Positions 44,316 through 55,585 of a DNA stretch of 64,000 bases are shown here, in pieces. The translations under genes and the position numbers were made by a program. The notes beneath the pieces are model-generated. The model saw only the letters and a program-made list of their open reading frames with translations. It ran no database searches and was not told the origin of the DNA. Source of the stretch: Porifericola rhodea (GTDB taxonomy: Bacteria; Bacteroidota; Bacteroidia; Cytophagales; Cyclobacteriaceae); the NCBI RefSeq assembly GCF_030506305.1, contig NZ_CP119421.1, forward strand, positions 1,170,354 to 1,234,353. The letters are read 5' to 3'. The stretch's first letter is position 1; each line of letters opens with the position of its first letter.

Positions 44316-44843
44316 ATGAAGAAGGCAGAAAACCCTACGGAAGCCCCCTCTCATTCTCACACTCACCTTAGATAAGGGTTCACAGAAATATTTTAACAGA
44401 CTAAGAGCCGTGTGTTTTCCTGCGGAGCGTAATTACCTGGATGCTCACCTCACACTTTTTCATAAGCTACCAGATAGCGAAATAGATACTATGGAGCAAC
44501 AGATAGCAGATATTAGTCAGGAGCAGCCCAATCTAGCCTGGAAGTAAAACAGCTCAGAATGATGGGGAGGGGCGTGGCATTTAGTCTGGAAAGCCCCCCT
44601 CTACTCAAGCTACACAACCGCCTGTCGCAGTTATGGAAACCCTGGCTTAGTCCTCAGGATCAGCAGATACTCTGGCCGCACATTACTATACAGAACAAAG
44701 TAGAAGCCGCAAAAGCTAAAGCCCTATACCAAAAGCTCGGCCATAACTTCAGCCCATTTATAGCAGAGGGTTTAGGTTTAAGTTTATGTCCTTATCAGCA
44801 GGGATCCTGGCAGTGGCTGAATGACTTTCCATTTACAGGGTAA
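44316..44843 (+). pseudogene. 2'-5' RNA ligase family protein, two frameshifts
   Basis: Reading frame 0 from ATG 44316 encodes MKKAENPTEAPS, then breaks in a CTCTC run near 44350, where two bases appear lost. The frame 1 part continues as LILTLTLDKGSQKYFNRLR and NYLDAHLTLFHKLPDS, with the first HxTx motif (HLTL). At about 44535-44540 one base is lost and frame 0 resumes as LEVKQLRMMGRGVAF through WPHITIQNK (second HxT motif) to the TAA at 44841. The combined product matches the bacterial 2'-5' RNA ligase/cyclic phosphodiesterase family. Either decay or two sequencing errors explain this. Confidence 0.8.
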
Positions 44844-50879: not shown

Positions 50880-52166
50880 TTATAAGTCTTCCTGGCGGAT
50901 AATGGCCGTCCAGACACTTAAACTTTTACCATCAATCTGTGTCCAGACAGGGTAAATTTTGCCATTATAGGCCACAATATTGGTATAGTCTCCGAAGAAG
51001 GTACCTTCTTCCAGCATAAAGCTCTTTTCTGTCAGGCAGATGTTGTTGAAGCTTTCTCCCCCATCAGTAGAGAAGGCCAGATAAACGTCCGTCTGGTGAG
51101 TTGAAGTATGCCTGCGATCATAAAAAACAATATAGATATACCCATTTTTAGGGTCTACACTCATCCAGCTCATAAATTGATGCCTCTTACTGTCGTCATT
51201 ATTTACCCGTATGGGCTCTGACCAGCTATCACCCCCATCTACAGATTTCGCCAGCCAGATATCAGTATTGTCGCTACCATTTCTTTGGTCTGACCAGTTA
51301 ATGTAAATCGTCCCTCTATTTGGTCCTTCACTTAGATCACAGGCTGTTACCGGGAGGCCATTACATCGGTCTAAGCCGGGTACTGCGAAGGTCCATCCAC
51401 CGGGCTGAGTACTTACCAACCTATCCTCTGCCAACCAGGTTTTTCCTCCATCCAGAGAGCGGTCAAAGAAAATGCTATCATTGAACGCCCATGCCACATA
51501 CACCTGACCTTCCGGGCCTACTGCTGGAACTGCTCCTTCTACCGTCAGGTCATCATCCAGGCAATTGCCGGCTCTCTGATTGATACGGGTAGGCTCAGTC
51601 CAGGTCTCTCCCTGATCTACAGAAGATGAAAAAAGAATATAGCTACTATCCGCCGGTTTGCGGCTACGGTACTTGTCAAACTCTGTCCAGCTTACATACA
51701 AATTATTATTGGCAGGGTCAGCTACGGCCCACTCTTTATCCTGATCGTGCCTTTTGTCATGAAAGCCAATGCTGCTACCTTGGCTCCAGCTGCGCCCTCC
51801 GTCTTCAGACTTTTGCACTACTATACGATCCAAAAGCTCCGCTGACTTCCAGCCTTTACCAGCCGGATTAGAGAGGTGGAAGTAGTAAAAATTATCGCTA
51901 TAGTCTGCTATGAGGCATGGGTCGCCCCATACACCGTAGCGTGATCTAAGTTGCTGAACTTTCCAGCTCAGGCCTCCATCGTCCGAGTAATAAACATTAT
52001 CCAGTACACTCCCTGCTACTAGCTGCTCCGGTGTATTTGGGTTAATAGCAATAGAAGGTTCGCAAGGCCCCAGATCTGCGCTACCCTCATGAATCTTGAC
52101 CAGCTTAATTTGAGAAAAGCCCAGCCCAGGCAGAAAAAAAAGAATAATAAAAATGTATTGTTTCAT
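50880..52166 (-). CDS. Secreted BNR-repeat sialidase-like protein
   Basis: A 428-residue protein with a signal peptide (cleavage near GFSQ). I start at ATG 52166, because the upstream GTG (52196) only adds a non-signal extension. Six Asp-box motifs (SxDGGxSW) are seen: YYSDDGGLSW, KSEDGGRSW, SSVDQGETW, RSLDGGKTW, KSVDGGDSW and FSTDGGESF. This shows a six-bladed sialidase-type propeller. The arginine triad of true sialidases is not clearly identifiable, so it may be a non-enzymatic or other exo-glycosidase-like protein. Confidence 0.78.
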   Translation of the reverse strand: MKQYIFIILFFLPGLGFSQIKLVKIHEGSADLGPCEPSIAINPNTPEQLVAGSVLDNVYYSDDGGLSWKVQQLRSRYGVWGDPCLIADYSDNFYYFHLSNPAGKGWKSAELLDRIVVQKSEDGGRSWSQGSSIGFHDKRHDQDKEWAVADPANNNLYVSWTEFDKYRSRKPADSSYILFSSSVDQGETWTEPTRINQRAGNCLDDDLTVEGAVPAVGPEGQVYVAWAFNDSIFFDRSLDGGKTWLAEDRLVSTQPGGWTFAVPGLDRCNGLPVTACDLSEGPNRGTIYINWSDQRNGSDNTDIWLAKSVDGGDSWSEPIRVNNDDSKRHQFMSWMSVDPKNGYIYIVFYDRRHTSTHQTDVYLAFSTDGGESFNNICLTEKSFMLEEGTFFGDYTNIVAYNGKIYPVWTQIDGKSLSVWTAIIRQEDL

Positions 52167-52269: not shown

Positions 52270-52731
52270 TTATTTTTTATGGTTTGGGGTAGTATACAGC
52301 TGCTGCATATAGTACATGTGAGGCATTGTTAATAAGGAAATAGCGATAAAAAATAATAAATAAGGAGAGATGTATTCTGCCAGGTACTGCCCTCCTATGA
52401 GGAGTAAAGCAATACCCACAAAGCTCAATAAAGAAAAGGCCAGGCATAACTGAGGAAGCAAATACCAGAGTAGCGCATACAACAAAATAATGCCAAGATA
52501 CACCATAAAGAAGCGCAGATAATTAGTGCTCGCCTGTTTATTTTTTTCTACTTCCTGATACACAACATGATTCACTGCGCCATGAGGTATACCGGTAACC
52601 ACCATAAGCAGCACAAAAAATACAAGCTGCCACTCAAAGGGAATGGAGCTGACTAGTAAAAGAAGCAGAGAAATAGTAAATGTAATGCCTATCAGTACTT
52701 TATTGAGCTTCTGTGGACTGCTTGTTAGCAT
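52270..52731 (-). pseudogene. Internally deleted Brp/Blh beta-carotene dioxygenase
   Basis: A 153-residue ORF that carries only the two ends of a Brp/Blh-family carotene 15,15'-dioxygenase (about 270-320 residues normally). The N-terminal half has GIPHGAVNH, the first family His motif. The reading then passes directly from LCLAFSLLS to a C-terminal part with ISLLTMPHMYYM. The middle, with the HFGx and HSRRH-type iron ligands, is missing, so it should not cleave carotene to retinal. The deletion is in frame. It overlaps the crtY end by 32 bases. Confidence 0.65.
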
Positions 52732-53931
52732 AATACCCAGGTTTTGTCCAAGTCCAGCTGAAATTCAGCTTCAGCATATCCGGCATATAATACGACCAGA
52801 GCGCATTTAAGTACGGAGGCCAGGGAAGACTTATAAATAATGAAGCCTCCTCCCACAAAGTAGTTTTTTCGTCCAGAAAACGTAAGATAAGTGCCCCTTT
52901 ATTTTTACTGAACATCTTTTCAAAGATATGCCGTGCTGCCATTGGGTGATTCTTTAATATGTACAGCAATAAATTATCGTAAAAGCGAAAGCGAGTAGAG
53001 GGCCTGGTTTTATAATAAGGCTGGCCATTCTTTTCTAACTGCCTAACAATCTGCCGGGCATCCTCTAACATATTTTTGTAAGTAAACACTGTACAGGCTT
53101 TTGTCATACCGCCTGCTGTACCAATACGCATGATATGTTTGCCTGAGCGCCGTGGAAAGCGATAGTTGGTCATTGGAATCAGTCCTTTCTTCTGGTGCAG
53201 TAACTCATAATGTGCAATACCCAATACTTGTTTAATGTAATGCTCTAGCTTCTGTTCATAAACTGATTCTTCATACTGCTTTTTGGATATTACAGTGTAC
53301 TCTACCAAAGCCTGATAGGGGCTTAATGGAAGCATATAAAAAAAAGAGGCGCCGTCCTGCTGACTCGTACGAAAATCCATCAACCGAATGGACTGATCGT
53401 CAAAAGAAGGCTCTTGGGTGCGAATATACCATCCTCTGAAATGTTGCCTTATACTCAGGGTGTTTTTGGGAGGAATAACGGCCAGGCTACTAAATACCCA
53501 CTTGGCATGATATGTATTTTGAGAAGTACTTACCACTACACCTTCCGAAACGTCTTGCATACCCTGAACAGCTTCGTACCTGAACTCAAAGTTTGGATAA
53601 TGGCGCAACACACTTTTTACCAACTCATAATAAGACTGACTATTAGTATAATAGTAGCGATAAGGCGTTATGTTTTTGCTTTGCAGTTTATGCGCTTTGC
53701 TTAGCTGAAGGTATTGCCAGTATTTGTTTGAATCTAAGGAAAGGGAGGAGCGTCTTTTGCCCAGAAGCACCAGCTTCGGTCATTCATTTTCTTTTCTTCT
53801 GTATCCAGCAGCAACACACTGCAATCATTAAGCTTCTGGCTTTGTGATAAGTAGTAGGCCAGGCTTAAACCAGCGCCTCCACATCATGCGATAATGTAAT
53901 CGTAGTGCCCCTGTCTGCTCTGCACTCCCAT
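52700..53931 (-). pseudogene. crtY: Lycopene beta-cyclase (crtY) with stop and frameshift
   Basis: The gene starts at ATG 53931 with MGVQSRQGHYDYIIA and is then broken by TGA at 53886-53884 inside the FAD-binding GxGxxG motif (reading IIA-stop-CGGAGLSLAYYL). After RSWCFWAKDAPPF the frame is lost near 53720-53745. The rest (52700-53770 in another frame) is a long cyclase-like C-terminal part with RGWYIRTQEPSFDD, MDFRTSQQDGASFFYMLPLS and GTAGGMTKACTVFTYKNM, marks of CrtY-type cyclases. It is a pseudogene or carries sequencing errors. Confidence 0.75.
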
Positions 53932-54100: not shown

Positions 54101-55585
54101 TTATCCTAAAGTAGCAGCGACATTCAGGAAGGAATCATCCTTGGTTTCCAATTCAGAATGCCCCATCAGGTGTAAATCTACTGCTCTGGCAGCTTCACGT
54201 CCTTCTGAGATTGCCCATACTACTAAAGACTGTCCACGGCGAGCATCGCCCGCGGCAAATACCTTAGGGTTACTGGTCTGGTACTTACCTTCTTCTGCTT
54301 GTATGTTACCTCTGCTATCTAGCTCAAGAGCTAACTGCTCTATTGCTCCGGTAGGGTCGGTATGCATAAAACCAATAGCCAGCAACGCAAGCTCGCAAGG
54401 CATTTCTTTTTCTGTGCCTGGTATTTCTTCAAAGTAGGTTCTGCCCTCTTCGTTTACCTTCCACTCAATCTTAACTACTTTTACGGCTCTAAGATTGCCT
54501 TCTTCATCGCCTAAAAATTCTTTTGTCAGTATGGCCCAGTCTCTGTTTACCCCTTCTTCATGAGATGATGAGGTGCGCAGTATCATAGGCCACAGCGGCC
54601 ATGGGTCGTTTTCGCCTCTTTCTGTAGGAGGCTTGCTCATAAGTTCTATCTGAGTTACTGACTTTGCTCTATGGCGGTTAGAAGTACCAACACAGTCAGA
54701 GCCTGTATCACCACCACCGATGACAAACACATTTTTGTCTGTCGCTGATATCTCATTATTCTCAGTAAAAGCCTCTCCAGATACACGGCGGTTTTGCTGC
54801 GTAAGAAACTCCATGGCAAAGTGTATACCTTTAAGGTCTCTTCCGGGGATAGGCAGATCACGAGGCACACCAGCTCCGGTACAGAAAAGAATTGCATCAA
54901 ATTCTTTATCTAATTCTTCTGCGGTAATATCTTTCCCCACATGCGTTTCGGTTTTAAACTGCACTCCTTCTTCTTCCATCACCTTTACCCGGCGCTCTAT
55001 CACTCTCTTCTCCAGCTTAAAGTCAGGAATACCGTAGCGTAACAATCCGCCAACATACTTATCTTTCTCAAAAACTGTTACCCAATGGCCCGCTTTATTA
55101 AGCTGAGCAGCAGCGCCCAGTCCAGCAGGACCTGAGCCAATAACCGCTACTTTTTTGCCGGTACGTTCTTTTGGTGGGTTAGCCTTGATGTAGCCTAGCT
55201 CAAAAGCTTTTTCTGCAATAGTCTTTTCAATATGTTCTATAGCTACCGGTGGCTTGTTAATGCCCAGTACACAAGACGCCTCGCAGGGCGCAGGGCAGAT
55301 ACGGCCTGTAAATTCAGGAAAGTTGTTGGTAGACTGTAATATTTCTATTGCCAGCTTCCAGTTACCCTGATAGGCAGCATCATTAAATTCAGGAATATTG
55401 TTGCCCAGCGGACATCCATTGTGGCAAAAAGGAATGCCACAATCCATACAACGTGCTGCCTGCTGCTGTGTTTTTTCCTCGCTAAATTCTACATAAAGCT
55501 CGTTATAGTCATTAATCCTTTCTTTAGGATCACGAGTTTGAGGTAATTCACGATTATATTCTTTAAAACCAGTTGGTTTTCCCAT
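54101..55585 (-). CDS. gltD: Glutamate synthase small subunit
   Basis: A 494-residue NADPH-type small subunit that delivers electrons to GltB. It contains the N-terminal 4Fe-4S ligands (CMDCGIPFCHNGCPL and CPAPCEASC), the FAD fold (VIGSGPAGLGAAAQL) and the NADPH fold (VIGGGDTGSDCVGTS). The arrangement of gltB then gltD, with 19 bases between, is standard. A hairpin terminator follows. Confidence 0.95.
   Translation of the reverse strand: MGKPTGFKEYNRELPQTRDPKERINDYNELYVEFSEEKTQQQAARCMDCGIPFCHNGCPLGNNIPEFNDAAYQGNWKLAIEILQSTNNFPEFTGRICPAPCEASCVLGINKPPVAIEHIEKTIAEKAFELGYIKANPPKERTGKKVAVIGSGPAGLGAAAQLNKAGHWVTVFEKDKYVGGLLRYGIPDFKLEKRVIERRVKVMEEEGVQFKTETHVGKDITAEELDKEFDAILFCTGAGVPRDLPIPGRDLKGIHFAMEFLTQQNRRVSGEAFTENNEISATDKNVFVIGGGDTGSDCVGTSNRHRAKSVTQIELMSKPPTERGENDPWPLWPMILRTSSSHEEGVNRDWAILTKEFLGDEEGNLRAVKVVKIEWKVNEEGRTYFEEIPGTEKEMPCELALLAIGFMHTDPTGAIEQLALELDSRGNIQAEEGKYQTSNPKVFAAGDARRGQSLVVWAISEGREAARAVDLHLMGHSELETKDDSFLNVAATLG

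Follow-up and report, generated by a model that had tools for sequence, protein, structure and literature searches.

The crtY-blh gene pair of Porifericola rhodea is, very probably, what is left of a retinal operon: the single rhodopsin gene of this genome, of the NDQ type, is a pseudogene as well, the pigment genes are kept, and the loss extends to all three genomes of the genus examined, apparently through at least two late and independent inactivations. The biochemical roles, the loss of function in the living cell, and its cause, a relaxation or reversal of selection on phototrophy, are our inferences. The pair lies in a stretch of 64,000 nucleotides (the window) of a genome, G000 below, that is assembled as one contig of 5,487,627 bases with a completeness of 99.87%. 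The features of the locus are as follows.

54101-55585, minus strand: gltD, glutamate synthase small subunit, intact flank and synteny anchor, also present in G001, G002 and JC749
53931-52700, minus strand: crtY2, decayed lycopene cyclase gene with a broken frame, recognised by PF05834 (3e-39) in its 356-aa downstream part
53886-53884, minus strand: in-frame TGA in the N-terminal FAD-type motif of crtY2, triplet read directly
53742-53715 (approximate), minus strand: net one-base frame change in crtY2, from alignment with the crtY2 of G001
52731-52270, minus strand: blh remnant of 153 aa, retaining PHGxx[DN]H and the C-terminal PH, without HFG and WH, from the BCD match and alignments
52420-52430, near 52426 (approximate), minus strand: junction of the internal blh deletion, where the middle of the protein is missing, from alignment with seven intact relatives
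50880-52154, minus strand: BNR-repeat (sialidase-like) protein, intact flank, lying 176 bases after gltD in G002

We find that crtY2, the second lycopene cyclase gene of this genome, has no continuous CrtY frame that includes the N-terminal FAD-binding motif, owing to a stop within the motif and a frame change. In minus-strand translation the gene starts at about 53931 with MGVQSRQGHYDYIIA, meets the TGA and continues as CGGAGLSLAYYL, so that the motif is interrupted by the stop (IIA*CGGAGLSL). The N-terminal frame ends at a TAG, and the cyclase resumes in a different frame as the 356-aa ORF (53770-52700), which matches Lycopene_cycl over positions 108-377 of the 380-position profile. Aligned to its G001 counterpart, crtY2 of P. 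rhodea carries the net one-base gap. A sequence-only reading of the window had called the in-frame stop, and a frameshift near 53720-53745; the former is borne out by triplet and translation, the latter by this alignment.

The adjacent ORF resembles the Brp/Blh beta-carotene 15,15'-dioxygenases (PF15461, TIGR03753) in the profile positions that it matches (2-64), in its C-terminal PH and in its place directly after crtY; in the relative locus L012, too, a cyclase ORF (3568-2360) overlaps a Blh ORF (2445-1489) in the same crtY-blh order. Unlike these enzymes, it is 153 aa long, as against 291-386 aa in most other BCD matches (three are longer, 655-709), lacks the HFG/WH middle and fails the TIGR03753 cut-off (53.5 against 95.25 bits). 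Against Pfam BCD it scores 52 bits, over a gathering cut-off of 28, in two stretches, the best of which covers 2-64 of 267 positions. Alignment with seven relatives, all intact, shows both ends of the protein kept and the middle with HFG and WH gone, a deletion of about 150 residues that preserves the frame to the natural stop. Thirty relative loci entered a motif count, from which 4 were dropped as holding no ORF that fitted the search pattern; among the 26 scored, PHGxx[DN]H and HFG are each present in 26 and WH in 22, and P. rhodea has neither HFG nor WH. The central histidines of this region are presumably metal ligands. Searching PDB sequences with an intact Blh, we found no relative of solved structure. 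The earlier claim that this ORF keeps both ends and lacks its central His motifs thus agrees with both alignment and count.

A question follows, does the genome hold copies elsewhere that could rescue the pathway? In a BCD profile search of the whole genome no second Blh was found, the sole match being the window locus, and rhodopsin matches were confined to one place, C1:4003442-4004157, about 2.8 Mb along the contig from crtY2-blh. This rhodopsin reads for 130 aa from its start to a TAA, then for about 55 further in-frame codons up to a frame change, which in the aligned DNA falls within a short A run; the rest, including DISSKVIY, sits in another frame. Given the TAA after residue 130 and the later frame change, a continuous seven-helix frame is absent. 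Rescue by another Blh or rhodopsin is therefore ruled out, the genome searches having given one BCD match and one broken rhodopsin locus. The sequence-only reading had made the loss of the retinal pathway depend on there being no functional copies elsewhere, and the search upholds it for blh and for rhodopsin; only for crtY was an intact copy found (see below). Disabling lesions, no functional blh or rhodopsin copy found and intact orthologues in relatives are together the picture of unitary pseudogenes, while for CrtY a paralogue is intact.

As to the kind of rhodopsin, the 130 aa before the TAA resemble PDB chains that carry the name 'Sodium pumping rhodopsin' (3x3b, 4xtl and 6rex), with a best value of 2.3e-56; the top PDB match of the gene is 8jh0 (2.7e-65), labelled Xanthorhodopsin. 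Residues 3-130 align to residues 4-131 of the NDQ rhodopsins 3x3b and 4xtl, and the helix C motif, NWMIDVPMLLFQ, retains the N, D and Q, which are common to 18 of the 48 rhodopsin loci examined (in the remaining 30 the pattern was not matched). Judged by its sequence, the broken gene is of the NDQ, Na+-pumping type, a group we take to be that of KR2, and unlike the NDQ pumps it encodes no continuous protein. Retinal loss, as claimed earlier, thus stands, and the proteorhodopsin context in which it had been put is replaced by that of a sodium pump, distinct from classical proteorhodopsins.

It could be argued that only local retinal synthesis was lost and that rhodopsin function persists, fed by imported retinal or provided by another rhodopsin. 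Rhodopsin genomes without blh do exist. Among 146 relatives, BCD is matched in 44 and rhodopsin in 51, all 44 lying within the 51 (lists compared by eye), which leaves seven rhodopsin-bearing relatives without a BCD match (G044, G082, G090, G109, G115, G124 and G138, of which G082 is only 82% complete); these may get retinal by another route or from outside. In P. rhodea, however, profile search found a single rhodopsin locus, and it is broken, so that for the assembly such persistence is refuted unless the lesions are errors, and we regard it as extremely improbable. In 42 of the 44 genomes the BCD match is near the whole profile length, the two exceptions being G000 and G001. In the family, rhodopsin is matched in 137 of 390 genomes, and among the matches listed only that of P. 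rhodea has an internal stop; partial among those listed are the matches of G001, a further copy in G201, and G237 at a contig end. Further matches lie outside those listed, including weak ones of G173, G272, G404 and G417. In G201 (C1:20928-21236) and G044 (C1:604462-604659), both of which also hold an intact copy, the extra partial matches are possibly more decaying paralogues.

The fate of the carotenoid genes is different. A Lycopene_cycl search of the P. rhodea genome returned crtY2 and an intact CrtY1 at C1:3651608-3652714 (two weak matches under the cut-off were set aside, one being the broken N-terminus of crtY2), and the loss therefore concerns the retinal branch, not carotenoid synthesis as a whole. 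An intact cluster encodes a phytoene-synthase-family protein, a CrtI-type desaturase, a CrtW-like ketolase, an FA_hydroxylase (CrtZ-like) and a CruF-like protein, next to an IspH (by ORF reading), an ECF-type sigma factor and a MerR regulator with a B12-binding domain. Of six pigment proteins run against NCBIfam, only the CrtI type exceeds its curated cut-off (758.6 against 640); CrtW, CruF and CrtY1 match under theirs, the synthase has HpnD as its best match, also under, and the CrtZ-like protein has no NCBIfam match. Because most of these scores fall under the cut-offs, the names rest partly on Pfam and neighbourhood. With CrtY1 and the crt cluster in place, general carotenoid synthesis is probably kept in P. 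rhodea, and the retinal branch looks dead beside it.

Comparison with the two other species of the genus, G001 and G002, extends the loss to all three genomes examined, with lesions that differ. In G001 profile search finds the rhodopsin in three pieces; its DNA is 73% identical to that of P. rhodea, and the two have no lesion in common in an alignment read by eye. crtY2 and CrtY1 of G001 are each split over two frames. The crtY1 lesion (L050 6518-7673) is one extra base in a T run, which may be an assembly error and for which reason we did not count it as proof of decay; if real, it would leave no intact lycopene cyclase among the profile matches of G001. The G001 blh encodes 198 aa, with a different internal deletion that again leaves the natural stop in frame. 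The deletions in the two blh genes overlap without nesting: the HFG region is kept in G001 and lost in P. rhodea, whereas a stretch SFVGIALL...LLFF is kept in P. rhodea and lost in G001. The G001 protein lies just above the TIGR03753 cut-off (96.2 against 95.25), and WH, which it lacks, is likewise not found in 4 of 26 relatives of full length; we are accordingly less sure that it has lost its function than we are for the P. rhodea Blh.

In G002 no rhodopsin or BCD match was found at E 0.001. Its gltD and BNR genes are only 176 bases apart, with no crtY2-blh between them, and at the syntenic place, upstream of the same divergent neighbour gene, lie rhodopsin fossils (59% identity over 27 aa, 50% over 32 aa, plus further pieces). 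The fossil region, L097 9250-10129, is spread over several frames at about 43-50% identity, directly upstream of that conserved neighbour. CrtY1 is kept in G000 and G002. The genome of the outgroup, the Catalimonadaceae bacterium JC749 (GltD 82%), gave no rhodopsin match, and in 19.5 kb examined there the interval from gltD to the BNR gene gave none to crtY2 or blh; since these matches are absent, JC749 gives no view of the ancestral state.

Expression of the shortened Blh and of the crtY2 tail is possible in principle, and the two might have been retained for a role other than retinal synthesis, for instance as a small membrane protein or a cyclase fragment, a use to which the preserved frame of both blh deletions and a tail open over 356 codons would be suited. 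Against this, the missing part differs between the two Blh forms, two motif regions are gone in P. rhodea, of which HFG is found in every relative's ORF scored, and G002 has no room for either gene between the flanks; by our estimate, moreover, the frame would be kept twice by chance about one time in nine. We consider such retention highly improbable and prefer to read the pair as a remnant.

Another concern is that the lesions are sequencing or assembly errors and the genes are intact in the living strain. The one-base changes of G001 (rhodopsin, crtY1 and crtY2) do fall within or next to short homopolymers, where long-read errors typically arise, and may in part be assembly error; so too the rhodopsin frame change of P. 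rhodea falls in an A run. The two nonsense codons and the blh deletion of P. rhodea, however, are no homopolymer slips, and neither can the G001 blh deletion, overlapping that of P. rhodea without nesting, be explained as one. To these are added controls, in which the genes of the syntenic stretches were matched between G000, G001 and G002 and called intact at coverage of at least 85%, in one frame and without stops. When P. rhodea genes were matched to G001, 37 of 41 other genes were intact and 0 of 41 frame-split; of the remaining four, two lie at the stretch end, and two match over their full length in one frame but show stops, explained in our view by the choice of a longer start or by the terminal codon. 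Of the four pathway queries in this direction, by contrast, three are frame-split, and the blh remnant aligns across the gap. Matched the other way, 39 of 43 G001 genes are intact in P. rhodea, one is at the end and three are flagged: a LigT-like gene frame-split in P. rhodea, a neighbour that is covered in full but holds one stop, and an ORF lying antisense to gltB. Five pathway queries also score as intact in this direction, which is uninformative, as they are pieces of broken or shortened G001 genes.

Similar figures hold for G002. From P. rhodea to G002, 41 of 43 other genes are intact, the other two being at the stretch end, and yet G002 is without crtY2-blh and has only rhodopsin fossils. 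From G002 to P. rhodea, 40 of 44 are intact, one is at the end and another three are flagged, of which two hold one stop each and are covered over about their whole length, and the third is covered at 72%; from G002 to G001, 37 of 41 are intact, one is at the end and three are flagged, namely the same gene at 72% coverage and two ORFs of 46-47% identity with 6 or 7 stops, which are probably antisense or spurious. Because the other syntenic genes are almost all intact, the crtY2 and blh lesions are more than noise, and error as the source of the decay is very unlikely. Decay is concentrated on the retinal and rhodopsin pathway and is not exclusive to it, as the LigT-like gene testifies. That gene (2'-5' RNA ligase family, window 44347-44834, plus strand) occupies two frames in P. 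rhodea and looks frame-broken; its counterpart in G001 is a single ORF of 177 aa (locus L092 659-1192).

When did the genes break, and how many times? Between P. rhodea and G001, rhodopsin pieces of 184 and 97 codons have pS of 0.86 and 0.73, which is saturated, pN of 0.105 and 0.146, and pN/pS of 0.122 and 0.202. Intact NDQ rhodopsins have a median pN/pS of 0.186 in 110 pairs at 75-87% identity, drawn from the 153 pairs of 18 intact genes and hence not independent of one another. Given saturated pS and a pN as low as in working pairs, selection would have acted on the two rhodopsins through most of the period after the split, and they would have broken late. For crtY2 the pN/pS of P. rhodea and G001 is 0.41, against 0.44 in intact genes (one pair of similar identity), and for blh it is 0.45, against an intact median of 0.46 (38 pairs of similar identity). 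Faster evolution of crtY2 and blh through decay was considered and dropped, as their ratios are no higher than those of intact pairs of similar identity; late decay is argued from rates for rhodopsin only.

Were the pathway lost only once, in the ancestor of the genus, and its remains then degraded separately in each species, the absence of a working pathway in all three would be accounted for, and the lack of a rhodopsin match in the outgroup JC749 would fit with it. Such a history is at odds, however, with the lack of a common lesion between the rhodopsins of P. rhodea and G001 and with the long selection after their split that the substitution values indicate. A tree of GltD, the BNR protein and an M14 peptidase (the last partial in G002, with GltD only for three outgroup loci) also groups G001 with G002, at a support of 0.994, and leaves P. 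rhodea outside. No common rhodopsin lesion, late breakage and this tree together lead to at least two independent inactivations, and we hold the single ancestral loss to be unlikely. Different lesions in G000 and G001, together with selection on rhodopsin after their split, make up a case of parallel loss, in which the two rhodopsins probably broke late and separately; in G002, where only fossils are left, a third independent inactivation is probable.

How might these events be connected? In our reading the ancestor would have possessed a functional NDQ pump, and an operon dedicated to supplying it, crtY2-blh, would have stood between gltD and the BNR gene, with CrtY2 making beta-carotene and Blh cutting it to retinal for the single rhodopsin. 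Once phototrophy ceased to pay, the pump and its retinal genes would have decayed side by side in each lineage; the pigment cluster would have been retained, as would CrtY1 in G000 and G002. With its rhodopsin a pseudogene, the light-driven Na+ pump of P. rhodea would be dead. We further propose, tentatively and at somewhat less than an even chance, that the whole genus is shedding its light-driven sodium pump through decay that is recent and has set in repeatedly and independently, with rhodopsin and retinal genes, at two distant loci, dying together in each species and the pigments being kept. If true, this would speak for active selection against rhodopsin phototrophy after a change of habitat or lifestyle, and not for drift after one accident.

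Loss of this kind has precedents. In marine Flavobacteriia rhodopsin genes were both gained and lost, with blh lost alongside (Kumagai et al. 2018, PMC5932025), and pigment (aryl polyene) and rhodopsin genes are mutually exclusive in distribution, for which replacement of rhodopsin by pigment was proposed (PMC5932025). The present case is alike in that rhodopsin and blh were lost together in Bacteroidota. In Flavobacteriia this was concluded from polyphyletic distribution and from gene absence beside conserved neighbours (PMC5932025, in whose text the string 'pseudogen' occurs 0 times), whereas here two species hold pseudogenes that can be dissected; the Flavobacteriia case as given there differs also from an NDQ Na+ pump with its retinal genes far from the rhodopsin. 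Thus the loss of rhodopsin and blh is already known, and it is the half-way and parallel catch within one genus that is unusual; a half-decayed NDQ rhodopsin with blh, in parallel within a genus, was not found in the openly licensed PMC literature, covered mostly at the level of listings. The frequent gain and loss of rhodopsin phototrophy calls for an explanation, and the published loss considered here (PMC5932025) rests on absences. Half-decayed genes with lesions that can be ordered, in related genomes, allow tests of the order of loss, of how many losses there were and of the changes that went with them, and the case separates retinal synthesis, which is lost, from carotenoid pigment synthesis, which is probably kept. 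There is also a warning in it: as P. rhodea passes the Pfam cut-off for both blh and rhodopsin despite broken genes, profile matches are unreliable as proof of a working pathway.

The pigment cluster itself is like the flexixanthin-type cluster of Algoriphagus, also of the Cytophagales, in that homologues of crtB, crtI, cruF, crtW and crtZ lie together, intact in P. rhodea; unlike that cluster, as described in PMC10784355, the intact cyclase of P. rhodea is the full-length CrtY1 elsewhere in the genome and not a crtYcd in the cluster. The MerR regulator with a B12-binding domain that the cluster holds was located at L199 10060-10965. MerR/B12-binding regulators of the CarH/LitR type can be light-responsive. 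By analogy with them, light sensing may have outlived light harvesting in this bacterium.
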